Positions 1 to 24,981 of a DNA stretch of 30,745 nt are shown piece after piece. Numbering within the stretch: position 1 is the stretch's first letter; each line of letters begins with the position of its first letter. The notes under the pieces were generated by a model. It made no database searches, had not been told where the DNA came from, and was given only the letters and a program-made list of their open reading frames with translations. Both the position numbers and the translations under genes were made by a program. The stretch is from Syncephalis plumigaleata (taxonomy: Eukaryota; Zoopagomycota; Zoopagomycetes; Zoopagales; Piptocephalidaceae), in assembly GCA_025201365.1 (NCBI GenBank), contig JAIXMF010000149.1, forward strand, positions 1 through 30,745. The letters are read 5' to 3'.

Positions 1-1
1 T

Positions 2-3000
2 ACACGTGGTGAAACACTCGAGGAACAAGTAAATTATACTAGACAGATTGTAGACATCCTACGTAGTGATCAGGATGTGAAAATGATTACTCAGAAATTA
101 CTTGAATTCCAGGCAAACTGTCAACTGGATGTTAGTCAGTCAATCGTATTCAATAAGCGTAATACTCGAGTACGCCACTTGTTATCGACAGTATTATCGA
201 AAAAGAATGCCGATAAACAAGCAGCCGATAAACGTGCAAAACAACCCGTTAAAAGTGACGTCAAAGTAGTACTCGCGAATAGTTCACCCCATTCTACCTA
301 TGCTGCCACCCATTCAACTAGCCATGTTTACAAAATGCGATGACTAACCAGAACAGCAACAAGAGTAACAAACAGGATGGTAAAGATGGTTCGACATCAA
401 ATCGTTATTACTCTCAGGAACAGTACACGACGGAACAATACGAGAGCATGGTTACGCAACATCCGGATCGTATTGATCTCTGGATTGCTTACGCTCAGCA
501 TCTTCTACCTAGTCCGTTAACGATGGATATACTTCGTGCGCCAGGCACTCAATTGGATGACACGCTACGCATATTGTCGCGTGCTTTATCGGTTTGCCCC
601 GCATCAGAAGCATTATGGAACATGTACCTAGAGTTCATGATGCGACGTGGAGACATTGGTGCGGTGCAGAATCTCATTGAACATGCACTTCGCTACACAT
701 CAATGGCATGGAGTATACGTTGGCGGTAAGTACTAACTATTCATATTATTAACATGCTAATCGATCAAATTAGACATTATTTATGGGAGGAAGGTAGTAA
801 TAAGAAGCATGCGATACTCGGAGATATGACCAAGGATCTATTCGATTCTAATCAACTGGGTAAGTATATATATTCTATTGCGACTATCTATCTAGTTATT
901 GATGCTAATGAACATGCAATATCAGATGTACAACAACGATCTCAGCGATTACTAGACGTACTAGTGCAATTAGTATCCCTTGTGTTGAAGGAGAAAGGCG
1001 CAGATACAGCAATATATACGCTATTTCGTTTGATTGCTTGTACAGAACGAGCGGATTTCATATCGTTAATGGTCAATGATATAGATATTAGCGAGTCAAT
1101 TGCATTGGAATCCACCAAGATTACATCACATCAAGTGCTAGCCCAACTGTTACAGCCAGTTCATTTAACAGTGCTCATTACCACCTATTGCCATTTATTA
1201 TTATGGCATTCACTTCCAAGCAATTATCTCTTATATGCTGCACCTAATGATTTCGTAACCATTGGTGGTCTCGTACTTTTACGCTACGACCAGTTGAACG
1301 AACTACCAATGAGCGAGATATCCGATTCACCTCTACTCACTAGCGTATATGCCATTTGGATTAATGTAATGCGACATTTGCTTTCTATTAAGGATGCAAA
1401 TGAGCAGGTAGCAGCCGGTGCCATGTCGTTGGAACCATTGATTTGGTCATTTAAAGCAGCGGCACAAAACTGCCATCACTTAGCGAAGACATTCTCCCTA
1501 CCCAGAAATGATTTACACGATATTCTAGTAACTTCACTCAATCAATGGCCAAATGCAACATTAATTGAGTTATACATTGAAATAGAATCAAATGTACGTA
1601 ATAATGATTAGTACTAATATGTATGTATATATTAACATTATATGTGTATATGTGCACTATTTAGAAGGAAAGGGGAATCAACTATTTATCGAACACCATT
1701 CAACAACAATTGCAACAACAAAATGAAATCGAGCATATCAACTTGAATTTCCTATATTATCACTGGATAGTAGAGTATTTGTCGTCGGCATCAATGCAAG
1801 AGGATAAGGCACAAGTACGCAATGTGTTATTCAATCAGTTGTGCAATTGCATCAAACGATATTTCGATAAAAACAAGATGCATGCCTATACGACACCACA
1901 GCATATTGAACCGTTATATCGTAAACTATTGGGATTACCGGCTTCCGTGCATACACCACCTGTATTGAAGAATATCAGTATAGACAATACACGTACCGAT
2001 ATCTACCTATGGCTCAACTATTTATTCCTACTGCAACTCATTAATACGCGTGCATTCAATGATGGCTTAAGCATGGATGATGCATTTAGTCAAATGTTTA
2101 CGGCAATTATCTCAAAATCAAACACGATAACATCAATATATCCATGGGAGGGCACTTTATACGCATTATGGCGAACGTAAGTGGTGATCATTCGTCTATA
2201 TATACATATATATATATATATATATAATGGCATCCTATCGGTAAATCTAACATGATCTAGGTTTATTACATGGACGACTGAGCATAAATCCGGCAATTCA
2301 CTAATGAAACGAGACAAGGAGGATAGAACGCATTTTATTTATTCTTCATTGGAGCAGGCGATATCTCAATTGGTTATTAATCATGAACATAGATATAATC
2401 CCGGCGATGTCATTCCGATGGCTAAGCTTATTCCGTTAAAGGTAAACTAGAAACGAGCAATTGAATAGCTGAGACATCCACGAGAGCAGAGTGGTATTAG
2501 TTCACTGGTTATTTATACGAATAATGCCTATCTATCTATCTATATCTATCTATACATTTTAACAGGACTGGACGCTCATCAATGGTCTATTGGAGCAATG
2601 TATGGATCTTTTACCGGTGCTTTCCCGAGCAAAGAAATCACATCTGTTTTACTTGCTTATCGAAAACGTTTACTATTGGCGCATGTATGGCATACTTCAT
2701 TGTTAATCATCACCTTCATTATCATTTATTCGTAATAACTATGACTTTCATTTGAATCATCTAGGTTTATCTATTCGCTGGCAGTTGCCGCCGAATTAAA
2801 GGAGGGATATCCACTACAACGCCAATTCGTCAAGATTGAACAGAGCTTCATTAACGCGCTGTCGAAGTTTCCTCACGATCAAGCATTGTGGACTATGTGG
2901 GGCCATTTTGTCATATAATCAGGCATATTTACACAATACTGACATAGATTGTAAACTAACTGTAATAGGCGTTTGACTTTTGTTAAGCAACTAACAAGTG

Positions 3001-3161
3001 CTGTGTCTAATGACAGCAAGGACAAGGACAATGGGGATGACAAGGGCGATGATGACGACGACGACAAGACTACCGAGAAGAATGCCTTGCTATCTAGTGT
3101 GATCAATGAAGCGAAACGCTACCTGCCCATGCATACGACGACTAATCTTCATTGTAGTTAA
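2..3161 (+). CDS. ZFC3H1/Red1-like nuclear exosome-adaptor scaffold, C-terminal part (5' truncated)
   Basis: Partial gene running off the left edge. Phase-consistent exons: 2-265, 352-725, 774-859, 926-1593, 1665-2176, 2261-2441, 2566-2684, 2765-2896, 2969-3161, giving 842 residues and a TAA stop. Introns are 48-124 nt; several carry a CTAAC/CTAAT branch-like motif. The product has HAT/TPR-like helical repeats, for example LRILSRALSVCPASEALWNM followed by YLEFMMRRGD and, later, DIYLWLNYLFLLQL. This order and spacing resemble the C-terminal half of animal ZFC3H1, the scaffold linking the MTR4 helicase to poly(A) RNA decay; fission yeast Red1 plays the equivalent part. The C3H1 zinc finger would lie upstream of the window. 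The tail is Asp/Lys-rich (DDDDDD). The first junction (donor at 266) and the last one (GTGGGG donor at 2897) are the weakest; without the last intron the frame stops at 2917. NRDE2 is the main alternative family. Confidence 0.6.
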
Positions 3162-3607
3162 TCTGATTCTTTTTTCATAAAGAGCAGATATGTTATAGTT
3201 ATTTATGGTAATAACTGTAACATATACCGATGAATGACTAGATTTCTGGCAAGTACAAAAACCAGGTAACTTTAATACTAGATAGACGATGGTCCTAGAA
3301 ACCATTGATTATTTAGTGTTTATTATTTGTAATATATGTTATATCCATATTCATATCCATATCCACATATATTGTTAATACGGTGAATCCATTTACATAC
3401 ACATAATACATGCTTCTCCAACTCGTTAACATTGTTAGCCATCAACTTTTGTTTTTATTAATAAATAGATTTGCATAGTAGTTAGTATCATCGTCTTTGT
3501 CATTAAATGATTAATTTTAATGGGATCTGCTCTCAGAACTGCATTCTGGCACTTATGATCTTTGAATCATAAGAAAATATCCAACTACGCTAGTATATTT
3601 GTATCGT
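3162..3607. other. Intergenic, 3' flank of the ZFC3H1-like gene
   Basis: AT-rich sequence with TATCCATATCCA-type short repeats near 3345-3375 and no open frame I can support. It separates two convergently oriented units: the scaffold gene (+) and the RRM relic (-). Confidence 0.5.
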
Positions 3608-4085
3608 TTACCTTATAGAATTGATAATAATAGTTATCGCTGTTAATGAAAGATCCATTACCAATAAATCATGTTTGCAATACATTGCAACACATGTCGT
3701 AGCAGGTGATGCCTGAAGTGGTCCCAATCCCTTTAATGTCTTCATGCCTTCAATCAATGTACCAGGTATCATGGCCGTAATAACATGAAGATTATTGCCG
3801 CATAGTTCAAATCCATTCATTGCTGCTATGGCCACCGGGACTACTTTATCCGATTCACAATCAATAAATCTAGTGCAATTTATTAGATGGATTTATATAC
3901 ACGTCTTGTGCTACCATCTTACCCGTAAGTCTTGTGTTGTCTTGTAGTCCTATTCGGCTAATGCTATTAACAATTTAATAGTTAGCAAACTAGTGAATGG
4001 AATGATCACGTATGCATATGTGCTTACAACGAGAATGTAATACTCGATTCTATCAAATGCCTCAATGATAGTTTACAGTGTCAAC
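3608..4085 (-). pseudogene. Broken RRM gene fragment, PUF60/half-pint-like
   Basis: Reading the minus strand, three exon-like blocks join in phase: about 4070-4028 (TIIEAFDRIEYYILV), 3957-3923 (PNRTTRQHKTYG) and 3870-3608 (FIDCESDKVVPVAIAAMNGF, then ELCGNNLHV). The two introns, 70 and 52 nt, are GT-AG. Together they form most of one RNA-recognition motif: an RNP1-like HKTYGFID and the closing AAMNGFELCGNNLHV. The layout, with a Pro-containing linker after the motif, is closest to PUF60-type splicing factors. Upstream, a TAA at about 4074 breaks the frame, and the preceding bases (gac act gta aac) still encode an RRM-like DTVN one frame away, so a frameshift is likely. No second or third RRM or start region was found. 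It is therefore a relic, retaining intron positions (not a processed copy). It lies directly beside the left inverted-repeat arm. Confidence 0.6.
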
Positions 4086-4165
4086 TATACCATACTAAAT
4101 AAAACGGATGCACATTACAAATACTCGCATACTCCATAAGAATATGCTGTATTCGATGAACATTG

Positions 4166-4990
4166 TAAATCGTGCATTTATTAAATAAATTATGATGATA
4201 CTACTTACGGTTAATTGCATAGAGAGCAACGTGTGAACAAAGTGAATACGCGATAAACAATGTAATAAACAAATAGCAGTTAGTAGAATGACTGACTTGT
4301 CACGATTGAGCAAGAAATGAGCAAGGAAGGGTGCATGAACACGTATGCCAGTTTATTCGAAGAAGCAGTGTATGCCTGTAGGTAGATAGAGTATGTAGAT
4401 GACAGTAAACAAATAAAAATACAAATAAAAGCATGACATAGTGGTGGCATACAAACAGATGACGGAAAAGAGTGGTAAAAGTAAAAGGTGCATACTACAA
4501 CGAGAGCGGTGAACGCTTAAGCATTGATAAATAAGCAGGACAGTGATAGAGAACAAAGGACTAGAACGAACAATAAACAAGGCTTATTGGTATAGTAATA
4601 ATAGCGACAAGTGAGCATGTAGATAGTTTAGAGGAAGAGGAAAACAAAGAGATAAATAAAAGTCATAGAGATCGTATGACAGAATAGCTGCTATTGGGAG
4701 TGTGTATGTTAAAGTGAAAGAGGAAGTAAGCGGAATGCGAATGACACGAAGAAGACGCGTATTACTGAGAAAGTAAAAGAACTAGCTAGCATATAGTTAA
4801 GAGGAAGTGGACGCGTGTTGTTTACTGACAAGTGGGATGTAGTTGACACAAAGAAGACACGTGCTGTGTAAAGAAATAAATGACAAGGGGAATGAGCAAT
4901 AAGTGGAATAGTGAATACACGCAGTGTGAAATGGCAGCAGTGACAAGCATGTGTATGTAGTGGGATGAAGTAGAATGATGGAAATAAATT
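4166..4990. repeat. Left arm of an 825-bp inverted repeat
   Basis: The reverse complement of this segment matches 15517-16341 end to end. I counted 15 mismatches and no gaps, about 98% identity. Similarity drops sharply at both ends. The minus strand is pyrimidine-rich and contains a consensus-like donor (CCGTAAGTAG, about 4199-4208). Short open frames exist in both arms, but nothing suggests selection on protein. There is no TG...CA terminus, no terminal inverted repeat and no target duplication, so I call it a duplicated segment rather than a known transposon class. Confidence 0.92.
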
Positions 4991-5126
4991 GGAATGAATA
5001 GAGAAAGCAACAGTGAAATGAATGTAGTAGCAAGTATAGAAATATTTGTATGCAGTGATTTAAATTGTTAATGACAATAGTAGTACATTTATTGAACAGA
5101 ATTGTATGGTATATTAGTGATGACAG

Positions 5127-5219
5127 TTAAAAACGCCGTTGTCGCTTTGCTGGTGGCTCAGACAGGTCGGATTGTAGGAAGCAGTCAAGCTTGCGCTTCA
5201 CTTCCTGCGCGGATTTAAA
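5127..5219 (-). pseudogene. Disconnected last 30 codons of the FHA-kinase gene
   Basis: On the minus strand this segment reads FKSAQEVKRKLDCF, then a short acidic linker, then PAKRQRRF and TAA. It is the natural continuation of the kinase after ...LQHPW. The two halves are separated only by the solo LTR and one copy of its 5-bp target duplication. The basic PAKRQRRF end resembles a nuclear-localisation tail, and Chk2-type kinases also carry basic clusters after the kinase domain. In the present arrangement translation from upstream stops inside the LTR unless the LTR is spliced out. Confidence 0.85.
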
Positions 5220-5505
5220 CCATGTGTGATGATGTCTACCGTTTTCGGTAGAATCATGTCATGATTAACAGCCCCTCCAAGTATAAATAGGTCCAACTAG
5301 AACCTATCTATCATTATCGAAAAAAAAAGCTATCTTTTATCCCCTCTCTCAATAAAAAGCGTTTATATCTTTCGTAAATCCTCTCGTTTATTTGATATTG
5401 CAAGTATAGAATCGTAGCGTAAAGGTATATTTACTGGAACCTACGATTACGGGTCTTTGATATTAACCCAATTACACGCTGTTCTCACTAGAACGCCACA
5501 CCATG
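5220..5505 (+). mobile_element. Solo LTR (276 bp, 5225-5500) with 5-bp target duplication CCATG
   Basis: The element starts TGTGATGATG and ends GAACGCCACA (TG...CA). It is flanked by the direct repeat CCATG at 5220-5224 and 5501-5505. On the plus strand the order is that of an LTR: TATA box TATAAATA at 5282-5289, then a polyadenylation-like AATAAA at 5351-5356. A hairpin (TCTACCG, TTTT, CGGTAGA) lies near the 5' end and a run of nine A at 5320-5328. No internal retrotransposon genes are present, so it is a solo LTR left by recombination. Ty1/copia and Ty3/gypsy elements both give 5-bp duplications, so I cannot choose between them. It sits antisense in the last exon of the kinase gene, and its promoter points into that gene. 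Confidence 0.9.
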
Positions 5506-7863
5506 GATGCTGCAGAGCATCCATGGCCGTCATGCGTCGAGCCGGATCGACCTGGAGAAGGCCATTAACAAAACGCGTCGCTAAACATGATTGATTATAG
5601 TTAGTGGATTTTATTAGTGTAATCATAGCAACTTACCTTCATTGACGGGTTCATTAAAATTGACAATTTCAAATGGCGCTCGCACATTTAAAATTGTAAG
5701 AAGGTATTCTTCATAGGTCCATTTACTGATATACTTCATGAATGGATGAATACCTATGACATATCAGGTTAGCTATCGTTGATTTTAAGCAAAGATTAAC
5801 TTACCACTTAACAAGAAGTATGCAAGGATGCCTATACTCCACATGTCGGCGCTTTTGGTGAATCCGACATTTGAACCATGGATATGGGCAACTTTCCATT
5901 TGCCCGTGTCGCCTTGTTTCGTGAAGCGTTCAACAACGACGTCTACATTCGCGCCGCTCAAAAAGACCTCTGGCGCCATGTATTCTGGCGTACCAATAAG
6001 TCCTTTAGCAATTGCAGTTGAGTTTGGGAATATAAGCGACAGCCCAAAATCTGCCAGGAGGGCGTGTGTACAACCCTCGTCCTTGAAAAGAATATTTTCA
6101 CGCTATACTTGTGTTAGTATTTATAATAAAGCAAATAACCAAATAGCTTACCTTGATATCTAGTTGCAATTGAATTACATTAAACAAGTCATCATGAGTA
6201 AATATTATTAGTTAATCATAAACATAACTGATTACTTACCAAGGTGAGCTATATCGACCTTGTGCAGATCCTAGTAGTGTATGGGTTAATAGAGCTTAGT
6301 ATTAATCATAGTTGTATTACTTACTTGGACCGCCAGCAGAATTTGGCGGATAATTGCCTTGGCCTTGGCTACAGGGAGTGGTGCGGGGTTCTTGGCCAGG
6401 TAGTTAAAGAGACTACCTCCTTTGGCTAGCTCTGTGACAACAAACGTGCCACAATCGTTTTGATTGAAGCTAATGGCACGTAGTATATGTTGCTGGTGTC
6501 GAAATCGTCGCATTATACCCCACTCGTTTGCCAGCGTCATATCGTCGTTATCAGCTTGCTTGATTGCTGCTGCTTCTCCAGTAGCACAGGATATCCCCTT
6601 GTACACTGTACCGAAGGCACCGCTAGATGCGCACGTTAGCTATTCATTATAGAACTTTCCTGTATTTAACCATTCGATCACTTACCCGCCGAGACGCTCT
6701 GTGGTCTGGTAGTAATCACCCAGCATCTGTACCGTGTTAGTAGTAACATTGTATATATTTGTCTCCATTTACCTGTGTATAATAAACAGGCGACACCTGT
6801 TCTGATTCTGCTTGTTCTAATGCAGTATATAGAAATTTGTCTATATATATTGTTAGCTCAAATTTATCAATGAAGTCGCTGTAACTTACAATTATAAACG
6901 TCTATATTGATCGTGCCGACATTTTCAAATGTGCTGTTTTCATTTTCCTCCTGATCGTTTACTACAGAAATGATTAGCATGAATATTTGACCGTTCATAC
7001 CAATAACTTACTACTTAAGGCAGTAGAGCCCCCATTCTAATAAACGATTAGCTAAACATTCAATACATTTGAGCATAGGACTTACTGTTATGTGAATCAT
7101 ACCATTTTCCTAATGAGCTGCAGGTTAGATTACATTCATCGTTTAATATGATTATTCTCTTACCTCTGATATGTCGAAAGCGCAGTTATCACCTTGAGGA
7201 AGCTTATAATCACTAATGTATTACAATTAGTAAGTATAGCAAGGCGACATAGTAGTAACTTACCAGCCAGCTTCATTACCAAACGATAACTTGCCGCCAC
7301 GGTAAAGTAGCAATTCTTTAGATAGGTTAGTTATTGTAGTCAATATCATTTAAACACAGCTTACCTTGCTTTTTATCTTGCTCCACCGTTATCCACCCTA
7401 CTAGCTTCGTGCGCTTCTCCTGCTGAAGCTTGGGCCACTTAAAAGGCACACGAATAAATTTACTGTGCTTTTGCTCTACACCTGAGCCACCGTCGCCAGC
7501 AATTGATAGTTACGCTGGTTTCGGTGATGGCTCCGCTGCTTTGACTGGCACCGACTCCGAGGCAGCAACAGTAGCAGCAGTGGTAGTAGTAGGAGCAGGA
7601 GCAGTGGCAGCAGCAGTAGTAGTAGGGGAGGTGGTAGTGGTCGTAGCAGGAGCAGTGGCAGAAGCGAGAATAGGAGAAGTGACAGTGGTAGTAGTAGTAG
7701 GAGAGGTGGTAGTGGTAGTAGCAGGAGTGGGAATAGGAGCTGAAGTAAAAGTGACAATACGTACTCTTCCATCGTTAATACCAGCGGTAGTAGCTGGTAT
7801 TATAATAGGTGCGGACTTTGACGCTAGCACTCGTATTGGTGCTGGACCGGCATCTCGTTCCAT
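5447..7863 (-). CDS. FHA-domain Ser/Thr checkpoint-type kinase (Chk2/Rad53/Cds1-like), C-terminus replaced by LTR
   Basis: Fifteen exons, all in phase: 7863-7514, 7462-7365, 7315-7264, 7212-7164, 7109-7086, 7036-7012, 6961-6890, 6840-6773, 6726-6686, 6622-6325, 6270-6240, 6159-6152, 6102-5805, 5753-5637, 5580-5447; 554 residues. Residues 1-116 are Thr/Ala/Pro-rich with TSP/SP sites and no SQ/TQ cluster. An FHA-like fold spans about 118-230. The kinase has the glycine loop LGGGAFGTV (258-266), Lys281 in AAIK, HLDIK with Asp370 and Lys372, DFG at 390-392, TPEYMAPE, an inserted segment before DMWSIG, and DPARRMTA...QHPW (to 537). FHA next to a CAMK-type kinase is the Chk2/Rad53/Cds1/Dun1/Mek1 architecture, DNA-damage or meiotic checkpoint kinases. 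The last 17 residues come from the solo LTR. The catalytic residues are intact, so the enzyme may still work. Confidence 0.85.
6152..6159 (-). other. 8-nt micro-exon encoding part of the kinase catalytic loop
   Basis: The upstream exon ends ...GCT CAC CTT G and the downstream exon starts CGT GAA AAT. Only the eight bases ATATCAAG between them, bounded by CTAG upstream and GTAAGC downstream, complete His-Leu-Asp-Ile-Lys. The flanking introns are 80 nt (6160-6239) and 49 nt (6103-6151). No other AG in the upstream intron gives an open catalytic loop. Confidence 0.85.
7510..7760. repeat. Imperfect GTAGTAGTAGGAG-type minisatellite inside kinase exon 1
   Basis: The plus strand is a degenerate repeat of GTGGTAGTAG / GGAGCAGTGGCAG units. 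On the coding minus strand it gives the Thr/Ala/Pro-rich disordered N-terminus (runs such as PATTTTTSPTTTTTVTSP). The repeat is open in several frames, which explains the long shadow frames on both strands here. Confidence 0.8.
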
Positions 7864-9229
7864 TTTGAGAGCGCAATCGTTAAGTATATAGCTGTAAGGG
7901 TATAGAAAGCAGCAGTAGAGCCGTATGGGATAAGTAAAAGCTTGCGCGTAAATCGAGGTTGAACTAGATAGTGGATAGAACTGGAAGAGTAGCGGAATAA
8001 GAGGTTGTGCATAGCCCAGTACCTACTGTCGCCATCACTAGTGGCTTTATATAACGCAACACATAGGTCATAAAACTGTAGCTTCAGCTTATACCGCTAT
8101 ACTTCCTCTAGGACGCTTTGAACTTGGGAATATTTCAAACTCATACTGCGTAGAGTTGAGCAGAACTGAGCAGAACAGACCAGCTCCAATACTATAATAA
8201 TCACATGTTTTTTACGATCTTTGCCAATACTTGACTGATTTCTACGCGGCAAGTTTGCTTACATTGCTTGACACTTGACTAAATACGTTGTGCACATTTA
8301 ATGTAGATATCCTTATTCATGACAAATTTACAGAGTGTATAAGATATTGGTCGTCAAGATAAACAAGCAAAGTGACTGCGCACTTGCATCGTCTTTATTT
8401 GGAAGGTGGTTTTGCTCTATGTAAGCAGCCACAATCTGTCTGATTATTGACAAAGGACCCGCACCGATACCGTTTACCCGGATTTCCATCCATCCATCCA
8501 TCCTTTCTTTCCTCTTTTACTAGCGTTATGAGGTTGGCAGTTCATCCCATTCTTTCGACGTTGTTGGCTCATGTCAATTTCGATATCGCAAGCTATCGTT
8601 TTCCTCATTTCTTTGTTCACTTATCCAACACAACGCTTCCAAAAACGATTATCAAACAGCTATTCCATCTAGGTTACACAATCCTTACCAAAAAATTCTC
8701 ACGCCGTTATTCCACTTATGCACTGCAGTTACGTCACTACAACATCGCACTGCAACCTAGCTTAACCCTGTGCATGTCATTATCGTAAACTACTATTTAG
8801 TCCTAGCCCATCAGAACTAACCGACCGCACACTGTATCTGTTATCTATCCCAACTGTCTACGGCTTTTGCGCTTTTTACTTCTCTTTCGTTTTCCACCCT
8901 CATTCTGCTACTCTTTTCTTGTAATGACACTTTCTACATAATACTGTCGTTTATATACATAGAATGAGTTATCCTTTATTATATTTGTTCGTATGGCGGT
9001 AATAATAAGTATGCTAATAGGTACTATATATTTGCGCTTTATTTGCTTGAAAGTACACATGCATGGGACATTGGTTGTTGGATCTACAGCAGAAAGTAGC
9101 AGCTACTTAAGCGATTGGGACTAGTTCCGGTTGACGAACGTAACAGGCATTGCGACTAAAGTTCCCGCACGAGCGCTACTACCCCAAATTCTTAAGTAAG
9201 CTGCTATGGGCTGTAGTAATCCGCAATCA
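7864..9229. other. Upstream region of the kinase, no supported gene
   Basis: Sequence between the kinase start and the first traces of the synthetase relic. A plus-strand frame at 8447-8788 ends with an Arg-rich stretch (KFSRRYSTYAL) that resembles a mitochondrial presequence. It could be the decayed N-terminus of the IleRS relic downstream, but nothing connects them. Confidence 0.4.
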
Positions 9230-9239
9230 ATGTAAGCGA

Positions 9240-11038
9240 TATTTGAGTGTTCTGGATAGTTGGAAGGGCTGATATACGAAGCTAAGTTCTGCTATTACAA
9301 GACCCTCATTTATCGCGGTAGGTGGATGTTGTGTATGTCTGCTATTACGCAGATCGAAAGATTGCTCAATAGTATTCCGTGGGGAATTCTAGGACATACA
9401 ACGGCATCCGCCTCGCTACCCTTTTGCTACTAATTATTTTGATTAATTAGATAGCCGTCTATTCATATTACGAGGATACACGCAATACGCAGCAGTAACC
9501 AGAAGGTAAGTAAATATGACCACTCGTGCATACAATCAATACTAATAGCTGCCGTTTACTAATTATACTCTTTATTATTCATTTACAACGCTATCAACCA
9601 TTTAATTACTGCCATTATAGTCTAAACATTGTAATCATAGGAAGCATATTTGGGTTGCCTAAGCCAACATTGTTTGGCTTAGGAGGGATAGGGGTAGCTT
9701 ACTGGTCTATGGCCAGTATTGCTTTGGGTGTACACAAATATGCTTCCTATGCGGGCTTTCCTTTATTTAATAAACATATTATAACACAATACAATCAACT
9801 TAATAACAGTGGATATTGATTACGTTTATCTTTTTGCATTCTCATCGTTACTTGATAGGTCATTATATCTTACATGAACTACATTGCTCTGCCACGTTAA
9901 TTAGAAATGTTTACCAAGTATTCTCGTTCAATAAAGGTATGTCGATAAGAAGTGTGAGCAGCATACGCAACGGTAGAATTAATATTTGCTTTGTTTATTG
10001 TAGCTATTCAGGAATTGAATCGCTTTACCAACTCGCAACTATCGGCGTCCTACTTTGAATCTATCAAGGAGCGGCTTTATGTTGACGACAATTATCGTTG
10101 GCACGAAGATCAGCACAGACTGCCGTATACCACATAAGTCATCGACACTTGATATGCAATGTGGCTAAGCAAGGAATATCGCATAGATAATTGAAGTGTG
10201 CACACGCGCACTCGCACCAATTACTTGTCATTTAACCGAGGAGATTCAGCTTTTCTCCTCGTCAACTTGGTCGGCACCACTTGATAGCGTATTCCAGTCA
10301 GGATGGATATCTCTGGTAAACACTTGCAATTACTGAGCTATGTGTGGTCTAACACTCGAGCATCGGCAATGAATAGGATGATCGTTGGCATAATATTGTT
10401 TTGGAGCAAGACTGGACAGTGCTACGACACCTTCGTAGTCAGTATTACCAGCTAGTCGGGAAGACGCGACAGGTCAAGTAAGTGCTATATGCAGTATACT
10501 AAATGATTTATTTACAAATCTCATTGACTGACAGGGGAGTCAAGACAAGCGCGCAAATCGATCTGACACTAGAACTAGAAGACAATGCAATGTCTCCACT
10601 AGGCCAACTGCTACAGAAATACGGTAAGACGACAATAACAATAGCGATAGTGATATCGGTTGTATATATTTTATTGAGCAATACGCATTAGCATCACAGC
10701 TACCTGAACTGTTCTTATGTGCATCGGTTAATGTTGCTGCACAGTCGACATTAACCACGAGAAATGACACTGTCCTTATTAGTGAACGATAGCATTACCA
10801 AGTAAGCATGGAGTATGAAGTATGAGTGTGCCATGATAATGACTATTGATCGACAACGTAATAGACACTATGAATGGTGCATCTGGTCAAATGATTCTAC
10901 GTTTATTGGCACGACATAAATGTCCTAGATGTTGGAGCTATCGATCTGATCAATCGGAATGTCTATGCAATCGATGCCAACTTGTTGTGAACAATAACAA
11001 GGGACACGTCATTGACACTGCTATGCATCCATATAACT
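9240..11038 (+). pseudogene. Decayed mitochondrial isoleucyl-tRNA synthetase gene
   Basis: Pieces appear in the order of class I IleRS. At about 9240-9320: LDSWKG and YEAKFCYYKTLIYRGR, weakly like the region before the KPVYWSPS motif. At 9846-9936: HYILHELHCSATL...QVFSFNK. After a 67-nt GT-AG intron, from 10004: AIQELNRFTNSQLSASYFES then IKERLYVDD. One frame over, near 10108: RRSAQTAVYHI. At about 10215-10300: RALAPITCHLTEEI then SAPLDSVFQSGW. At 10545-10623 and 10692-10790: ELEDNAMSPLGQLLQKYG and SQLPELFLCASVNV. At 10905-10985: the C-terminal zinc ribbon HKCPRCWSYRSDQSECLCNRC without its last residue, ending at 11038. There is a frameshift near 10105, several stops, and most of the catalytic core (the Rossmann half and KMSKS) is missing. 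Introns remain, so it is not a retrocopy. Confidence 0.85.
9636..9751. repeat. Nested inverted-repeat structure (17-bp outer stem, two inner hairpins)
   Basis: The perfect 17-bp inverted repeat CATAGGAAGCATATTTG (9636-9652) / CAAATATGCTTCCTATG (9735-9751) encloses a 10-bp hairpin CCTAAGCCAA (9658-9667) / TTGGCTTAGG (9674-9683) and a second hairpin at 9700-9718 (TACTGGTC/GGCCAGTA, one G-T pair, 3-base loop). Total 116 bp. No target duplication is visible at the edges. It may be a small MITE-like element inserted in the synthetase relic or a structured RNA. It happens to be open in the plus-strand frame 9526-9819, which I do not regard as coding. Confidence 0.75.
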
Positions 11039-14036
11039 AATAGCAACATCCCATCGATGGTGTACTAGCAAGCCTATTGAATAACGACCTGATTCATTCG
11101 ATCACCCTGAACACATAGAACCTAGTTGTTAGACACATACCAATTATAAACCGTTACTTTATCATACTGTATTCGTGTACGATATTCATTATTAGTTGAA
11201 TGGATTAGAATGATCAGCTAGCAATTACTACAACTAATGATACCATTGTCATCATTATCATCATCATCAGTTTATAAACATCCATATGATATGATTAATG
11301 ATAGATATTGATACACGCGATACTGCTATTATGCATCTATGCTACATTGATTACTGCCAACATAGCGAACACTCGATTATTACCATTAACGGCACTTCTA
11401 TATGAGTATGGGCAGTCGTCATCTCAATCAATAGATTAAGCTGAGCATATCACATGGCTGACATACCGCAGCAAGTATTCGGTAATTAGAATGGAGTCGG
11501 ACGTTATTCTCGGTCAGTGGTGGACTAACCGATTCAGTCGTCGTCAAACCCAGCAAGACTAATCATCGAGTATAGATTCATTTATGACATACACCATTTA
11601 CATCAATGTAGAACAGCAGTTACTCGAAGAATCAGTATATAGTTATTGTAAAGATGAATGTTTATTGCGTAAAAGCCTTGGTAAGAATATGAATAACGAG
11701 TACATTATAATAAATATCCGTGTCTACGCTGTATTAAAATGTGCACACAATGGACAGCTTGTCTTTATTATTATATGTATAATGACTGTAGAATGGAATA
11801 AATGACTAACTTTACTGATGGAAATGCCGGAATAGTATAATGGAATGAGTGTATGGAATGATTGATGCTGGATGAAAGAGAGGAATGAGTAGACTAAAAT
11901 ACAATGTCGTTCTGGCAAGTAGAAGGTAATGAAGCAATAATGAGATAGGAAGGAATACAGTAATGACATGTCGATATAGATCAAATTGATTCACGTTTAT
12001 TAATATTGCTAGTGGATACTTGTCAATGATGGATGGCAATGAGTGTTGGCAGTAAGCATTAACATGGTTGATTATCCCGGTATGTCGTCGTTATTGTTGA
12101 ATATTAGTTGGTTGACATTTAGTATGGGAATTAGTACATATCGTCTGAATGCTGTCACTTGTATTAGCAATGAATAGAAATGTCAACTTACCGAATAGAA
12201 TGGAAATAGTATGCAGTCAATATCGTTGACAGTTGGATGTTCTAATTGTAATATTGTTAGTGTATTGTAATAGATGAACTTACCTGTAATTGATAACTAT
12301 GAATGAATGAATGAAGGAAGGAATTATAATAAAGTGTTAAGATATGTTATGTCCCCATCATATCCGCAGCCGCAGCCACGGGGCCTTTTTTTAGTGCGAG
12401 CGGGCATGCTATGTTGAATCAGTTGGATAGCCTTGCGACAATATACCACTATACTGCCGAATGTTAGTATGGTAACATTCAACAATAAAACTACGGAAGA
12501 GCGGGCATATGGACCATTCATTGCAAATGGCCATACACCACATCGACAGTATGATGGTCATGTTGGCCAAGCAATTACCACCATAGACGATGCTGCCACT
12601 TCAGTAGCGGTTCATGGTATACCAATTGAAACACATACAAAAGGGATCAGTAGATTAGCACATTTATACAAATGTATTGGTGCTAATGGGACATGACATA
12701 ATAAATGAGGGGATTGGGAAGTGGAGATATGAATAAAAGTACAATTGAAATGCGATAGGATAGCGCGAATAAAGAATGATTAAACATACGCAAAAACATA
12801 TCATTAAGTAAGGTCAGTCACCATAATACCAAGTAAACTAGACTCCCTTCTCCCAGCGAAGGCAGCAACATGATGATCAATATCACGGCAAAGCGTCGTT
12901 TAAATGATATTATGATGGCAAATATCTCAAACACATATCAATATAGAATAAAGATATGTATTCAAGTATTTGCAAACCGATACACTCCATAATATTCATA
13001 TAATAGAGAGGCTACCCGGCTACATTAGCAACTGAATGACTTGTAGAAACAACAAAGTATTTGCCTTAAAATGCGCAGAATCCGTGCAATTTAATAGCTA
13101 ATGTCCGCTCTACATGGGGCAAATACACATTATTGCTTTGCAGCAGCTTCATATTACGTAAATATACGGATGTCCGCAAGCAAGTAGCGTAGAACATCGA
13201 CACCCGTTACAGGTACCGACATTGCACTGAGTTGAAAAAAGTCAACTACGCTCATTACCACACTCAGCGCTACGCTACACGCAAACAGTTTACAGAGCAC
13301 TGACCTACTTTACTATGTGTATGTTTAAACAAAGAAAAGAATAAATAGTTCATTTGAATGACAAAGAAGAGAAGAAGAAGAGAAGCGAAGAGTAAAGAGA
13401 AGTGAAATGGTGTGAGTCATTGAATAGCTCACTATGTAGTGAGTGCTATGATGCCGTCATCATTGGCCATTTAGGTTATACAAACTTCAGTATTTGGTAA
13501 TAAATGTTTCAGTGATAGCGATAGCTATCGTCTACCTTATAGCATTCGTGACGATACAAGCGTAGCAGTATGGTTTGATGTTCACATGCGATGCACTTGC
13601 AAGTAGCAATAAGCAAGTATAAAAATACGATACAAAGCATACCGTGTAGTATACGAATGCTATCCGCTTTGCAAAACATATACTCGAACTACCTTTCCTC
13701 ACCATCGTATATTTTGTATACATCCTCGCGATATTGTCCATTACGTTTATTCTTCTATTCTTCTCGCTCGCTTTGTAAATATTACGAGCGCAGTACTTTT
13801 CCTTTCCTGTATATCCTCCATAACCTTCGTCAATAACCTCTGTTCACTTTATATCTTAGCGATTACGTGTTTCTACTGCTACTACTACTGCAATAGCAGT
13901 TTGTACTTGCTACCGCTGATCGAGACACGCGTTGTTTGCTATCGGTCTAGAAGTCGCAGTTCTTTCAAGTTTTAAGCTTTGCGTCCTTAAATCTTCTTGT
14001 TTATACACTGTATATTTCATATTAGCGACAAGCAAT
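11039..14036. other. About 3 kb between the synthetase relic and the Cdc20-like gene; no supported gene
   Basis: AT-rich sequence with many stops in all frames. There are (ATC)n-like stretches at about 11250-11272 and a GAATGAATGAATGAAGGAAGG run at 12302-12322. An 87-codon plus frame at 12433-12696 is less biased than its surroundings, but I do not recognise the product and it lacks splice or family support. The last few hundred bases (13,500-14,036) are pyrimidine-rich and probably promoter and leader of the downstream gene. Confidence 0.5.
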
Positions 14037-15370
14037 ATGACTACTTCAAATCTTAGCAGTCATAGTGGAGTAGTCACCCGAGCTATGGCACACCGATTAC
14101 AGAGTGACAGAGCAGCAACATCTACCGCTACTACTGCTACCACTAACACAGAGACAACATTCGACGAAACGACGTTATTAGAAGACAGCGACTTTCAACG
14201 TATAGCGGCATCGCCATCATCTCCGCCATCATCATCACCAAGTGGCTTTTCTACAATGCTGCCGCTAACATCCAATGCAATCCAACCGTATATATTTGAT
14301 ACGGAAGCGCAAATATATTGGTCGGTGGAACGTCTATTACCACAACTAACTGCACCAACATACGCCATACATAGCGTTAAGCGCTTTTATCCTAACCCTA
14401 TAAGTTGGTCATCAACCAATTTATTAGCGGTTGGAACTAGGGATCACTTAACCGTAGTGAACACTACCACCGGTGCTGATATTAAATTGGATGAAATAAG
14501 CGCAAACAATCCAATTACATGTGTAAGCTGGATGAAGGAAGTAAGTGGCAATCACTTCTAGTCAATTGTACCAAAATTTATTAATCCATTTACTTTCCTT
14601 TTATGTAGAGACCATACTTGGCTGTTGCAACAGCCAATGGTACTATTAACGTATGGGACGTAAATCAAGAGCGAGTGCTGCGTACATACGGCAGATCAGA
14701 GCACCCAATATACGCTATGACATGGTGTGGCTCAGTGCTAGACTCAGGCGAACGTGGCGAAAATGGCGGAAGAATCATGCGGCGGGATATAAGAGCTCCC
14801 GATATTGAGGAAGAACGGTATTTTACGCATGCATCTGATGTATGTTGTTTGCACTGGAATCGTGCAAATACCTGGCAAGTTAGCGGTAGTATGAATGGCC
14901 ACTTATTGCTTTGGAACAAATATTGGACGTCGCCTTTTCGTCAATTGAAGAATGGTAAGGGTGCAATCAAAGCTGCCGCTTGGTCACCACATCGCGACGA
15001 CTTACTAGTAGTCGGTGATGATTCGAAAGATGGTAAAATTAGACTATGGGACGTAACAAATAGCTATATATATAGTAGACTTGAAACAAAATCTAAAGTA
15101 AGTAATTTGGCATGGTTACCGCATAACCGCGGCATTTTATCGACTCATACAGGTAGAAGAAACAACCTACGGCTTTGGAGATATCCAGAGTTGATGCAAC
15201 CAGAGGTCGTCAGTGAGGGGAGTCACGGTACTGGATGCTATGCTGATCTGGACTTAATCAGCATGGCAACTGGACACGACAATGGTGTCTCATACCTGGC
15301 CACCTCGCCAGATGGCAATGTGTTTGCCACCAGTGCACCCAACAAGTCTCCCTCTCTTTGGGAGATGTAA
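14037..15370 (+). CDS. Divergent Cdc20/Cdh1-family WD40 protein (APC/C activator-like)
   Basis: Two exons, 14037-14540 and 14609-15370, joined by a 68-nt GTAAGT...TAG intron; 421 residues. The Met at 14037 is preferred because the longer frame from 13932 only adds a hydrophobic stretch unlike the family. Residues 1-90 are Ser/Thr-rich. Then a seven-bladed propeller follows with family marks: ISWSSTNLLAVG, TANGTINVWDV, RDIRAPD, HASDVCCLHWN, GAIKAAAWSPH, KIRLWDV, SKVSNLAWLPH, NNLRLWRYPE and GVSYLATSPDGNVFATSA. RD(I/V)R followed by this blade order is diagnostic of Cdc20/Fizzy/Cdh1/Ama1 proteins, which recruit substrates to the anaphase-promoting complex. No C-box (DR.IP.R-like) is recognisable, and the protein ends at SLWEM without the C-terminal Ile-Arg. 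It may be a meiotic-type or neofunctionalised paralogue, or a decaying copy. Confidence 0.8.
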
Positions 15371-15516
15371 ACTCATGAATTGTATTTTAGTTAACATAAT
15401 AAAGCTGTTCCTTCAAACATTAATAGCTACTCGTTGTTTGTATCGCTATCCATTACTACCTAGTAAGTGGCATTCATCAATAAAGACGAGCTGCCCATTG
15501 CTTCATACCATTCACT
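15371..15516. other. Short spacer: 3' flank of the Cdc20-like gene up to the right repeat arm
   Basis: It contains AATAAAGCTG shortly after the stop codon, a plausible polyadenylation signal. It shows only vague resemblance to sequence just outside the left arm. Confidence 0.4.
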
Positions 15517-16341
15517 AATTTATTTCCATCATTCTACTTCATCCCACTACATATACATGCTTGTCACTGCTGCCATTTCACACTGCATATATTCACTATT
15601 CCACCTATTGCTCATTCCCCTTGTCATTTATTTCTTTACACAGCACGTGTCTTCTTTGTGTCAACTACATCCCACTTGTCAGTAAACAACACGCGTCCAC
15701 TTCCTCTTAACTATATGCTAGCTAGTTCTTTTACTTTCTCAGTAATACGCGTCTTCTTCGTGTCATTCGCATTCCGCTTACTTCCTCTTTCACTTTAACA
15801 TACACACTCCCAATAGCAGCTATTCTGTCATACGATCTCTATGACTTTTATTTATCTCTTTGTTTTCCTCTTCCTCTAAACTATCTACATGCTCACTTGT
15901 CGTTATTATTTCTATACCAATAAGCCTTGTTTGTTGCTCGTTCTAGTCCTTTGTTCTCTATCACTGTCCTGCTTATTTATCAATGCTTAAGCGTTCACCG
16001 CTCTCGTTGTAGTATGCACCTTTTACTTTTACTGCTCTTTTCCGTCATCTGTTTGTATGCCACCACTATGTCATGCTTTTATTTGTATTTTTATTTGTTT
16101 ACTGTCATCTACATACTCTATCTACCTACAGGCATACACTGCTTCTTCAAATAAACTGGCATACGTGTTCATGCACCCTTCCTTGCTCATTCCTTGCTCA
16201 ATCGTGACAAGTCAGTCATTCTACTAACTGCTATTTGCTTATTACATTGTTTATCGTGTATTCACTTTGTTCACACGTTGCTCTCTATGCAATTAACCGT
16301 AAGTAGTATCAACATAATTTATTTAATAAATGCACGATTTA
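15517..16341. repeat. Right arm of the 825-bp inverted repeat
   Basis: Reverse-complement partner of 4166-4990 (about 98% identical, no gaps by my alignment). The plus strand is C/T-rich. A donor-like CCGTAAGTAG is kept at about 16299-16308. Inner spacing between the arms is 10,526 bp. The flanking sequence outside each arm differs, so the boundary is abrupt. Confidence 0.92.
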
Positions 16342-16963
16342 TTTACCGTGTTAATCGATATTATGTGTGTATGGAATCCCCATTAGCAGATGCTTTGTTC
16401 TTTGTTTAGCATTCGCCTCATGTTATTTATCACAATGCAAATGCCATTAAGGCAGCATCAAACAATGCTCTGCATAACTAGAATGTATCTGCCAAATAAT
16501 AAAAAGTTCTATGATAGATCTAGCTTATTTTAATGCATATGTGTTTAGTGTATTCTGTATTCTGGCTACTTGAATTAACATATGATGTTCAAGTCTTTGC
16601 AAAGCAACATCTACAATCAGTGAGATGTTACTACGGTTAGCTACGTTACGCGCTTTGATAGATACGCTACAATATAGGATATAGTCAATAGATATAATGT
16701 TTTAATACGATGAATACCTTTACGTACACGCCGTCTATTATAGATATGTATACTTGCGTGTATTGCATTTTTACTGGATCTTTATAATGTAATCAACGTA
16801 TTTTTATAATTCATATTAAACATTTAGCATAATTGTAAACAGTGTTAAAATAATATAGGAATAGAGCAATGATTACACATTTTACAATAAACATAGCTTT
16901 AATAATATTGGATAATTCATATGCAATAGACAAGTTAATAAAAGATAGGTGGTTGTGGTTGGA
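16342..16963. other. Intergenic between the right repeat arm and the first F-box-like gene
   Basis: AT-rich, no supported gene. At about 16450-16510 the plus strand reads RQHQTMLCITRMYL, vaguely like the segment before the first RRM of PUF60 proteins. That would mirror the RRM relic beyond the left arm, but the resemblance is too weak to annotate. Confidence 0.4.
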
Positions 16964-19900
16964 CTAGACAGAAAAGTCCAATAAGAATAGGAATTCCGGT
17001 GCTCGCATCTCCCACACGATGACGTGTGCGGCCGAGGTCCAGAAACGACGATTGGCCGCGGGTCGTAATGGGAATGGACCTCGTCGATGTCCCGTAATAC
17101 CATCGATCAGCTCGTATTCCATGCCATAGTCTTGATGTTCCTGTGGTGGCAGTACTGACTCCGTATGCTTATCGTTGTTACTATTACTGTTGTTGTTGTT
17201 GTTGTTGTTAAGACCAGGATGAATTGCCTCTCCCCAATGGAGTAGGCCAATGACTGGTTCTGGCGGGTAAGAGGGACCACCACCGCGCGAGAACTGCGGC
17301 GTGTAAGCGTAGGCAATATCACGACCCGTATGCGCGCCAGTTAATGCCCAGCCATCGTCTTCGTGTAGGGCAATTAGATCGGATGCAGCGATAACTCGAA
17401 TATCGATAATACCGCCACGACAACATTCCCATAACAATTGACCGCGTCCCACCAAGTTGATCATACACAGCCAGGTGGGTTGGTCAGGATCCGTGTACAC
17501 GGGATGTATCAATATCCTGCCCATGCTAATGGCACGCGTACACAACATGTCGCCGGTAAGCCAATTGGGAGCACGTACTAGAGCATGTTCGCCTTGTCGT
17601 ACCACTCGAATGGGATTAGTTTGCGTTGTGATTTGGGATGGCTTAGGTGTGGCAGTTGATCGTGGCACCTCCATAATCATATTCGTTGGATGTATGATAT
17701 TATCCTTAATGTTGATACCGGTATCTTCAGTCGTATTCGTTTCTGTATTCAATGCATCATTATTGCATTCGGCGGTCGTTTCCACAATACTACCGATAAT
17801 GTTATCATCGATATTGGTTGATTCAATGTTAAATTCGGCTACATTATCTTCATCTGTTATAATGATTGTTTCATCAGCAATAGAATCATCTCCCGTTTGT
17901 ATATATACTGCTGTTGCCGCTAAAGAATTGTCTATTGCCGTGTTCATTTCATGCTGTTCCAATGATTCATGTTCATCAGCTAGGGAAGGTTCATCCGTTG
18001 ACAATTCTACCATTAAGCTGCTAGTAAACGTTGAGGTTGATTCGTCAGCTTGTACATCTACCGATGCTACCGGTTCCTGTAAAGCTTGACGTATTTGTTC
18101 AAATGTCTATAGTGTATATGCGCGTTAGCGTTATTAATTAAAATAAACTAGTTTACATGATCGTATCATACCTGGCAAGTGTTTTGCTCGTGTGTACCGG
18201 CAGGCTGAGCGGTAATCTCCACGTATTCGTACTTTAGCAGTGTGTTGACCATATCGCATTTGAACACAAAAATACGTCGTTTACTAGACTCGCTCGAGTT
18301 ATCACTGCATAATGACGAGGTTTCCGCACGTTCTAGATGGCATGCCTGATTAACACCGAACAACGAATAGACTCGGAATCCGTTGCTTGTTGGCTCGCGT
18401 AAATCGTAGACCACACGTTTTGCCGATCCCTCCATGTCCATCGTTCGATGCCGTGTGGCCAATAACCAGCCGTCGCGTAGCTCTTGACCGCTCACGTAGG
18501 GCAGGGTGATCGCATTACCATTGTCGTTGTCTATCAAGGCCGCCACCGACCAAACGCACGTGGTAGGCTGTACTCCATCGGTGGCACTCGTCATGTTCAT
18601 ATCCGTGGCGCCCATCAACTCCTCAAGAGTGGCGCTTGCTTTACGTGTTCTCGTAATTGCATGATAGGTAATGGCGATGAATTGATCATCCAGCAAGATT
18701 TCATCAATACTAATCGGAGTATCGGCATCCATGAATAGTTCAATGGGAGTATAGGCCGTTTGATAGCCGATATCCAGGGTGGGCACGTAATAAAACTTAT
18801 CGGGCGTAATGGGTCCCTCCATGAAATCGTCCTGGTCCAACGATGCGATCGCCCTTGTATGGAACGCGTGTCGCGCTCGAGAAGCTGTCTGTGCCAATAG
18901 AGCACGTCGTGACATGCTATGCTGCGAGTGACTACGTCGACCGAAGCCACGCGTGTGTCGATCCTCCCAATCGGACTCGACATCGGCATCGTCAGTATCG
19001 TCGTCATGTAAGCGCATCCTCTCTAGCGGTGATACAGGCAGATTGGTCGACTCCATACCAGGTTTGCGTCGTCTAAGCGGTGGAATTCGCGTATTCTCCG
19101 ATTGCGTATGGTCCATATCACTATCACTCCAATCGTCCGCTCCTGTATTCGCAGTGAATGCCGGACGAGTATGACTGGCCGATGGCCTCGATGTGGTACG
19201 ACCCACCCTAATGATGAAACCCCATACGTTGCTTAGTAATACCTCCACCGACATGTTCGGCTCCTCTATGCTACCCTTCTCGCGGGGTGAAGTTGGAGAA
19301 ATGTTGCCGGATAACTCGGTTGCAATACCGTTGGCCAGCGACGACGTATCATTGAAATGATCGTTATCCATCGACGGTATACAAATGGTACGACTATTAT
19401 TCTGTCCTCGGCACCAATTCGCCTCCAATTGTTGTCTACGCTGATAAACGTGGAACCATTCATCGTCCATATTGTAATAGAGTTGCGTGTTCAACTTGCC
19501 CTTGACAAGTATATTTCGCTGACGTTGTAGTAGTAGGGCGGCCTTGCACCAACGCAACCAATCGATTTCATCGTCATTAAGCGGGAAATGCGCTATATAC
19601 GACTGCTTCCAACGGTGGTCGTCTCGACTAATGGTTTGATAGAGTTCTCGGCAAGTTCGAGCAAACGACACCGACATATAGTCCACCGAGAAATGCGCTA
19701 CACGAGCGAGAATCGACAATGGTAGGGATCTGCTATGCCACGCGGCCACCTTCTCCTGCCATGGATTGGCCTTTTTGGCGGTGTCACGCTTCCTACTGAT
19801 ACTAGCGCGTCCCGGCAAGGAGAATCGATCCTCGCTGTAGGAGCGCCCACCTTCGTCGGATGTATGACTAAATATCGATATACCCGGTGATACTGGACCG

Positions 19901-20868
19901 TAATTGTTAACTAATAGTCCGTGAATGGATGTACTACCGGGAACAGCTAGTCGATTCGTCGAACCTTCCGATAGAGATGCGGTCATTGCTGTAGTCGTAC
20001 CACTAGTGGCAATGTCCAACAATGCCGATTCCTGTACTGAGATAAGTACCGGTGCTGTATCTGTTCTTTCTACAACCATATCAGATGATAATTCTCCTTC
20101 TTCTTCTTTAACTGTATCTGCATCATATACATCCACTTGTAAATTTAATTCGGGTATATCTGTCGTGGTAGTAGTATCATTGGTAATGTCAATAGTATCC
20201 ACGTCTTCCAACTCAACTGTATCATTTATATCTACACCGGTAGTTACTTTAGTGTATTCTGCAGTTGCTGTTTTGGTTGCTGTTGTAGCACAATCATTTG
20301 TATTCTCCTCTTGAATTGCCATGACTGGTATGACATCTGCTTTACTCTCCTTTGCAATCGTTACGTTAACATCGATTTTTGTGTCGCATGTAGAAATAGC
20401 AGGCGATGCCGGTGGTGATAATGGCAATGGTAAGTGCAACCATACTGGCTCATTCATTGTATCATTAGTAGATGTGGTAATTGTTGTTGTTATTGCTGTT
20501 GTTATAGATGATTCATCTAATGTCGATAATTCGGTGATAGATGCAACTGGTGACAACATGACATCCTGTACAGGATCATTAATAGTTGTCTCGGGTAATG
20601 ACTCGGTACAGGATGGTGGTAATGCTTCCTTACACTCGGTTACAAGTTCATTGTCGCTTGTATCGTTATCATCGCTCATCACGATGACTGGTTGTGATGG
20701 TGGTGTTCGAGCATTAGGAATTACCGCCGGTTCTGGCTCCAAAACAAATGACACGTCATTCTGTTTATTATCAACTATCGTTGATTCTACTAATGTCGTC
20801 TCTTGTTCACTACTGACCATCATCGCTTCAGCAGGTATGACCGATTCCTCCAAGAAGTTATCCGACAT
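16964..20868 (-). CDS. Large F-box-like protein of unknown function (1,279 aa)
   Basis: Two exons, 20868-18172 and 18106-16964, joined in phase through a 65-nt intron (GTATGA...TATAG). Residues 1-330 are acidic and Ser/Thr/Val-rich with little predicted structure. At about 375-425 there is an F-box-like helical motif: LPLSILARVAHFSVDYMSVS, then TCRELYQTISRDDHRWKQSY. It is followed by W-rich segments DDEIDWLRWCKAALLL and YQRRQQLEANWCRG. The middle has Arg/Ser/Asp-rich linkers. The C-terminal half contains scattered beta-propeller-like strands (TTCVWSVAALID, RRIFVFKCDM), and the last exon a run of Asn. F-box proteins bridge substrates to Skp1-Cullin ubiquitin ligases; that role here is inferred only from the motif. 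The neighbouring minus-strand gene at 21948-24383 shares the post-F-box W-rich module and is probably an old tandem paralogue. Confidence 0.65.
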
Positions 20869-21947
20869 ATTATGCGATAATCTTTTTATAATTCCGTTTT
20901 ATGCTGATAATGAACAATGAACAATAATGATGCCAACTGGTGGTGTAACAGGTCAAGGGCTTCTTAGCTATACACAGCACGACCGTATCAAATGAAAACC
21001 TATAACAATGGCGTCGATGACAAGTGAGACTGCGTTGTTGCAAAGAGTATAAGTGGAGAGAAATGAAGAGTTAAGAGGAAAGAGGAATAGGCTTGAGAGG
21101 ATCAACGTTTAAGGACGCACGAGAAATGGAATTGAACGGAATGGCTGCAACCATGTCACGCTGCACGTCATTGGATCAGCCGATTAGTGAGCGAGCAAGG
21201 AAGCAAGGAAGCAAGGAAGGACAAATGGATGAACGGACTATCGTCGTCAAAGGTAGGAAGTATACCAATGACACGATACTACTTTAGAATTCTTTTGCGC
21301 GGATGTGCATGTACGAATGTGTGCATACTTGTATGTACATGTGTGACTGCGCGCGTGTCGTTTTAACGTCGAGTCAAGCGATACAAGGCGTACATCTCTG
21401 TGTCCACATGTGTGTGTGTGTGTGTGTGTGTGTGTTATATACATTCTATGATGCGAGTGTAACATAGCCGCGTGGCCATCACCATTCGATATCCCATGTG
21501 GAAACCGGCTGATATCAGTCTTCTTCTTTTTTAAACATGTATTCGACGTATTCTACTGGCTACTATTAATTCTAGAGTGCATATACCGTTCCAATATATA
21601 ATAAAGTTACCTACTTCTCATTGATCATTACAAAAATACGTGGATGTATGTATTATTCTAATTACTAACACGCTGAACGTTGCACATCAATAAAAATCAT
21701 ATCATTATCTTGCTTTATTTGGCAGTGTATAGCATGTCGAATGTCGAACAATTTCGCAATGGGATCATGTGTAGATGTATTTACACGGGTAACTTGATCA
21801 ATGCAAAATAGAACACATGTAAACATGCCATGAAATATACAAACGCAAAGAAATAGGGAGAGAGTGAGATATTTGTGCTATACAAACGAGTTACTACATT
21901 GCAGAAACAATCCATGTCATTTCCTGTTAGATGGATGGTTAATACGA
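20869..21947. other. Intergenic between the two F-box-like genes, with (TG)n microsatellite
   Basis: Upstream region of the larger F-box-like gene and 3' flank of the smaller one. It holds a TG repeat at about 21409-21434, three AAGGAAGC-type units at about 21197-21215, and no supported gene. Confidence 0.6.
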
Positions 21948-24383: not shown

Positions 24384-24981
24384 ATACTAATCAAAAAGGG
24401 GGAAAATGGGCTTGCACCTACTAGGGCGATGATATTGACATATACCTCATTTAAATACAGGTCACGCATATAGGCACACGTGTACACGTACATACATACG
24501 CACATACAAACCGTCATGGCTAAGGACTATGACAATGTTGCACTAATGATTGGTTCTACTAGAGGCGTTGATGGAATGACGTTCGAGTTGATTGGCTAGA
24601 ACGCTTTCCATTTGCAACGCAAACTTGCAGACAAATAGACCGTAATAATGCGTGCAATCCACTAGTTGCACGTATATGACGATATCACTGACGGTCTGTT
24701 CATCGATTTTTCTTTTCCATCCTTAACGAATTAGCCATCGTATGAAATGATCTATTCATTCATCGCTATTACACTCGATAATACAACCTATTTGATCGAT
24801 TTACTATATGCCGCTAATAATAATATTTATTGATATTCGTTTATACAGCAAAAACATGCACAAAGCTGCAGCTTATTTTGCTCAAATGTTTAATTTTACT
24901 GCAAAGCAATATACATACATACGTGTGTGTGTGTGTGTTCGTTCATTTGTATGTATATTAGTTAATAGACCATCATACTTC
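24384..24981. other. Intergenic between the F-box-like gene and the RBM26/27-like gene
   Basis: Upstream region of the 811-residue gene and 3' flank of the RNA-binding protein gene. ACACGTGTACACGTAC at about 24476-24491 is a small palindromic cluster of ACGT cores. A short GTGTGTGTGTGTG run lies at about 24924-24938. No gene is supported. Confidence 0.5.

Follow-up and report, generated by a model that had tools for sequence, protein, structure and literature searches.

A kinase gene whose last exon is split by a retrotransposon remnant may be a live gene with a new, transposon-made end or a copy already on its way to decay, and our question was which of the two is found at this locus. The stretch analysed, here called the window, is an entire contig of 30,745 bp (C56) from a eukaryotic assembly of 32.6 Mb in 383 contigs. 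Its short introns, mostly of the form GTAAG...AG, and its Ty3/gypsy-type element suggest that the DNA is fungal. The reading that we favour, with a probability of roughly 0.85, is that the kinase allele of one haplotype is non-functional, having received both a Ty3/gypsy insertion, now a solo LTR, and a nonsense codon at position 118, and that this loss is probably tolerated.

The kinase gene was modelled by hand, without RNA, as 14 exons on the minus strand between 7863 and 5127 (7863-7365, 7315-7264, 7212-7164, 7109-7086, 7036-7012, 6961-6890, 6840-6773, 6726-6686, 6622-6325, 6270-6240, 6159-6152, 6102-5805, 5753-5637 and 5580-5127), and all 13 introns run from GT to AG. The most similar copy in the assembly lies near 43 kb on contig C373 and is 98.0% identical over the kinase stretch, the next best being a copy on C90 with 91.6%. 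Spliced, the C373 copy encodes a protein of 583 residues whose kinase domain is complete (PF00069, E 2.1e-49), and its PDB relatives, among the best 60 of 886 kinase-like matches, include DAPK1 (2.1e-33), RAD53 (5.5e-29) and CHK2 (1.1e-27), which points to the CAMK group. The label of a checkpoint-type kinase given in the initial annotation is thus plausible as far as the kinase domain is concerned, this being closest to DAPK1 and then to RAD53 and CHK2, but it is not backed by a significant FHA domain: there was no Pfam match to FHA and no significant PDB profile match, the only hit being a weak one to the FHA domain of CHFR (E 0.73, profile positions 45-103).

The LTR occupies positions 5225-5500 on the plus strand (276 bp, TGTGAT...GCCACA) and is flanked by the target-site duplication CCATG at 5220-5224 and 5501-5505, which confirms the extent, the TG...CA ends and the duplication first described. 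It falls exactly between the codons for HPW and those for a 30-residue basic tail. As had been proposed, the frame after HPW now reads through 17 LTR-derived codons, CGVLVRTACNWVNIKDP, and ends on a TAA at 5447 (5447-5500, minus strand), and the severed tail with its stop codon, FKSAQEVKRK...PAKRQRRF, lies beyond the LTR at 5127-5219 on the same strand. In the C373 copy this tail follows HPW directly, which supports the loss of the tail from the window copy. A KR[QP]R cluster near the C-terminus is kept in all 21 intact kinase copies, which suggests that it is useful; in two near-intact copies a stop removes the last four tail residues. Nuclear targeting by the tail is a guess made from its letters.

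Searching the genome with the LTR returned 15 matches, comprising 12 full-coverage LTRs (the window's own and 11 near-identical ones) and three diverged fragments on C112. The 12 LTRs make up seven insertions, namely five elements with paired LTRs (about 5.4-7.1 kb, on C340, C362, C35, C80 and C69) and two solo LTRs (in the window and at C340:56127). With 11 other LTRs almost identical to it and a separate 5-bp duplication at every one of the seven insertions, the LTR at 5225-5500 is no chance resemblance. Paired LTRs are identical to each other in four elements and differ at one position in the C69 element, and the window LTR differs from the C340 LTRs at one position; the family is therefore young. 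The element on C80, the sole one inspected, encodes an integrase zinc-binding domain (PF17921, E 4e-18) and an integrase core (PF00665, 1.3e-14) upstream of its 3' LTR. Integrase adjoining the 3' LTR is the gene order of Ty3/gypsy elements, and its position on C80 suggests that the family is of this type.

The empty site that had been predicted was found within the same assembly. The locus near 43 kb on C373 is allele-like: it is colinear with the window, holds CCATG once and has no sequence corresponding to the LTR. Its kinase copy is continuous across the insertion point, as are 30 further full-length copies, so that the LTR is missing from all 31 other full-length copies modelled. Upstream of the LTR, window positions 1-5224 match C373:37857-43052 with 98.2% identity, and downstream of it 5500-12479 match C373:43047-50017 with 94.2%. 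Identity is about 75% over 12460-13620, colinearity holding across 1-13,620, and it resumes at 16360-20591 (C373:54739-59000, 97.2%). Positions 21900-24400 have exactly one other match genome-wide, at C373:60299-62799 (99%). It should be underlined that the comparison covers 1-13620, 16360-20591 and 21900-24400. Because of the colinear flanks and the single genomic partner of 21900-24400, C56 and C373:38-69 kb most likely represent two haplotypes, with the LTR inserted in just one of them; the organism would then be a diploid-like or heterokaryotic eukaryote.

The allelic status of the two loci is inferred from their colinearity, and they could instead be the products of a recent segmental duplication, with the LTR inside a paralogue. 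Such a duplication would account for the drop in identity to 94% across 5500-12479 and for the one-sided block at 13621-16359, by which C56 and C373 differ in more than point changes. Against it, C56 is a whole contig of 30.7 kb that is colinear with C373 in all parts compared, 21900-24400 has its one partner there and nowhere else in the assembly, and C72 seems to stand to C373:557-573 kb much as C56 does to its partner. We therefore consider a duplication improbable, though it deserves to be kept in mind.

Besides the LTR, the window copy has a second lesion. Its exon 1 contains a stop at codon 118, TAA (7510-7512, minus strand), where all 31 other full-length copies have CAA, and this stop precedes both a conserved N-terminal region of about 130 residues and the kinase domain. 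Both lesions are absent from the C373 copy, whose frame is intact; since neither is found in that or any other full-length copy, the C56 haplotype is where both most probably originated. The kinase exons are complete, as the initial annotation held, but a normal message would already stop upstream of them. Its suggestion of a first step to decay comes close, except that the LTR is only one of at least two lesions.

Its other suggestion, a live gene with a transposon-made C-terminus, is not supported in view of the stop at codon 118. On that reading the cell makes the kinase with its tail replaced by 17 LTR residues, which changes where it is located. The frame does run cleanly into the 17 LTR codons, and apart from the LTR and the TAA the window copy retains its frame and all 13 splice sites, including the frame of the kinase core, so that it is either young or still in use. 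However, the stop is unique to the window copy among the 32, and splicing around it looks poor when judged by the introns found in the other copies. These 402 introns measure 45-83 nt and are mostly of the form GTAAG...AG, with GTAAGT (266), GTAAGC (49), GTAAAT (31), GTAAGA (26) and GTAGGT (23) as donors and seven others, and in 307 of them a CTRAY lies no more than 40 nt from the acceptor. In exon 1, the TAA would be excised by 16 in-frame GT...AG events of 30-129 nt, but every one of these has a donor scoring no better than the weakest 0.2% of the 402 real ones and lacks a CTRAY within that distance of its acceptor. A live gene of this kind is accordingly very doubtful in our view. The TAA may also be an assembly error, or a shorter kinase may be made from a downstream start, such as the ATG of exon 8 at 6726.

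The LTR might also act on other copies. Its motifs TATAAATA (5282-5289) and AATAAA (5351-5356) suggest that its own transcription would run on the plus strand, antisense to the kinase gene. Because the LTR opposes the gene and retains both a TATA box and a poly(A) signal, and because the gene's full-length paralogues are 77-98% identical, it is conceivable that readout through the whole 2.4-kb gene body makes this copy a trans-acting silencing allele for the kinase family. If so, an otherwise dead copy would have a dominant effect; we rate the chance of this as very slight.

Least credible is that the LTR behaves as an intron, with cryptic GT...AG sites inside it or nearby excising most of it and restoring the tail: 12 in-frame combinations do reach the tail in a plain enumeration without shuffled control, but they would be introns of 215-356 nt against 45-83 nt in the family, none of the 12 donors scores above the weakest 0.2% of real ones, a CTRAY is missing from the 40 nt next to each acceptor (as is also true of 95 of the 402 real introns), and the exon-1 stop would persist. 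With weak donors in the 12 LTR and 16 exon-1 events and no CTRAY near their acceptors, rescue of either lesion by splicing is unlikely.

The loss of one haplotype's allele can thus be pictured as follows. A Ty3/gypsy-type retrotransposon went in where the codons of the kinase fold end and those of the basic tail begin, and duplicated 5 bp of its target, as is shown by the duplication, the LTR ends and the empty site, the last in the allele-like copy as in the 30 remaining full-length ones. The interior of the element would then have been lost by recombination between its LTRs, leaving the solo LTR. The nonsense codon, which may have been gained later or may already have been there, would limit the product to a short peptide with neither the conserved N-terminal region nor the kinase, and no full-length protein would be made. 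The loss would probably be tolerated because the frame is intact in the other allele and in many paralogues.

The gene is multi-copy. When 1,920 bp of it served as a DNA query, at least 43 matches were obtained, at least 32 of them full-length including the window copy; the models cover these 32, the other 11 being fragments, truncated at a contig end or diverged. Some of the 32 modelled copies are probably allelic to one another. The frame is intact in 21 of them, ends four residues early in two and is disrupted in nine, the window copy among them. With 32 full-length copies, 21 of them intact, one lost allele probably matters little. The dN/dS ratio was 0.28-0.46 in ten compared pairs without the window copy, one of which includes the disrupted C90 copy, and 0.91, 0.44 and 0.28 in three pairs with it. 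The value of 0.91 is that of the window and C373 copies and comes from only 4.5 synonymous and 13.5 nonsynonymous changes; when these were polarised against seven chosen paralogues, the counts were 4 and 12 for the window copy and 3 and 7 for the C373 copy, which does not clearly single out the window copy.

The arrangement of the family is a separate observation. At least 22 of the 32 full-length copies stand in outward-facing pairs spaced about 7-31 kb apart, and contigs with such pairs are C72, C111, C290, C324, C24, C329 and C373. The partners are 99.0-100% identical in eight of the 11 pairs compared (78.5, 96.2 and 96.3% in the other three), as if they were kept alike by gene conversion. 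One pair on C72 and one on C373 probably represent a single locus on two haplotypes, and the spacer of the C72 pair holds reading frames which we take to resemble eIF5B.

The neighbourhood of the kinase gene contains further repeats. A dispersed repeat with a core of about 690 bp lies just 3' of the gene (4166-4990, minus strand), and a second copy, 98% identical to the first, lies at 15517-16341 on the plus strand, just 3' of a Cdc20-like gene. Genome-wide, the core query gave 316 first-look candidates and a wider query 428, of which 40 were scored each time. Among the 40 scored with the core query, a tally by eye counted at least 13, including both window copies, that directly follow the 3' end of a kinase or Cdc20-like gene with the same orientation. 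The Cdc20-like WD40 gene (plus strand, about 14037-15370) and its repeat lie in the haplotype-specific block at 13621-16359, where the C373 sequence differs. Between the same colinear flanks, C373:51226-54738 carries the dispersed repeat in reverse and a reading frame of 497 residues without Pfam match, relatives of which are found on C353, C192 and C207 and elsewhere on C373. We considered whether the inverted 825-bp copies at 4166-4990 and 15517-16341 are the terminal repeats of a 12-kb element carrying the kinase and Cdc20-like genes. This was rejected because the repeat is dispersed (316 or 428 candidates), because two copies on C228 face inward and because the Cdc20-like half is haplotype-specific. 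On C228, inverted arms of 935 bp that are 99.9% identical (532-1466 and 3863-4797) are each built on the dispersed repeat and enclose a spacer of 2.4 kb. Upstream of the kinase gene, the short stretch at 9636-9751 has perfect 17-bp inverted ends, CATAGGAAGCATATTTG, and is possibly a miniature inverted-repeat element.

What the locus offers is a clean, young and haplotype-specific transposon insertion with its duplication, its empty site and an intact second allele, all within one assembly. It also calls for caution, as a gene seemingly alive except for the insertion had an upstream stop that was revealed only by comparing relatives. Of possible interest to specialists are the large kinase family, mostly in near-identical outward-facing pairs and often beside a dispersed repeat, and the fact that the kinase locus adjoins a block whose gene differs between haplotypes. 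A narrow open-access search for literature on a solo LTR with kinase truncation and on palindromic kinase pairs found none, which is no proof of absence.

Compared with known systems, the insertion is ordinary in kind. It shares with solo LTRs of Ty3/gypsy (Metaviridae-type) elements the TG...CA ends, the 5-bp duplication, the near-identical relatives with paired LTRs and the integrase by the 3' LTR; nothing essential differs, although here the LTR interrupts the coding exon of a gene with many copies, and does so on one haplotype only. With the CAMK-group Ser/Thr kinases DAPK1, RAD53 and CHK2 the gene shares a complete kinase domain (PF00069), but it differs from them in having no significant FHA domain and 32 full-length copies. 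Most kinases have the motif HRD, whereas all 21 intact copies of this family have HLD, and DAPK1 itself has HFD in the PDB alignment. Finally, Fusarium oxysporum has a kinase expansion, tied to accessory chromosomes by the title of the report (PMC6001611), and so likewise appears to have amplified kinase genes in one genome; to judge from that source, the present family differs in its outward-facing, mostly near-identical pairs, often situated by a dispersed repeat.
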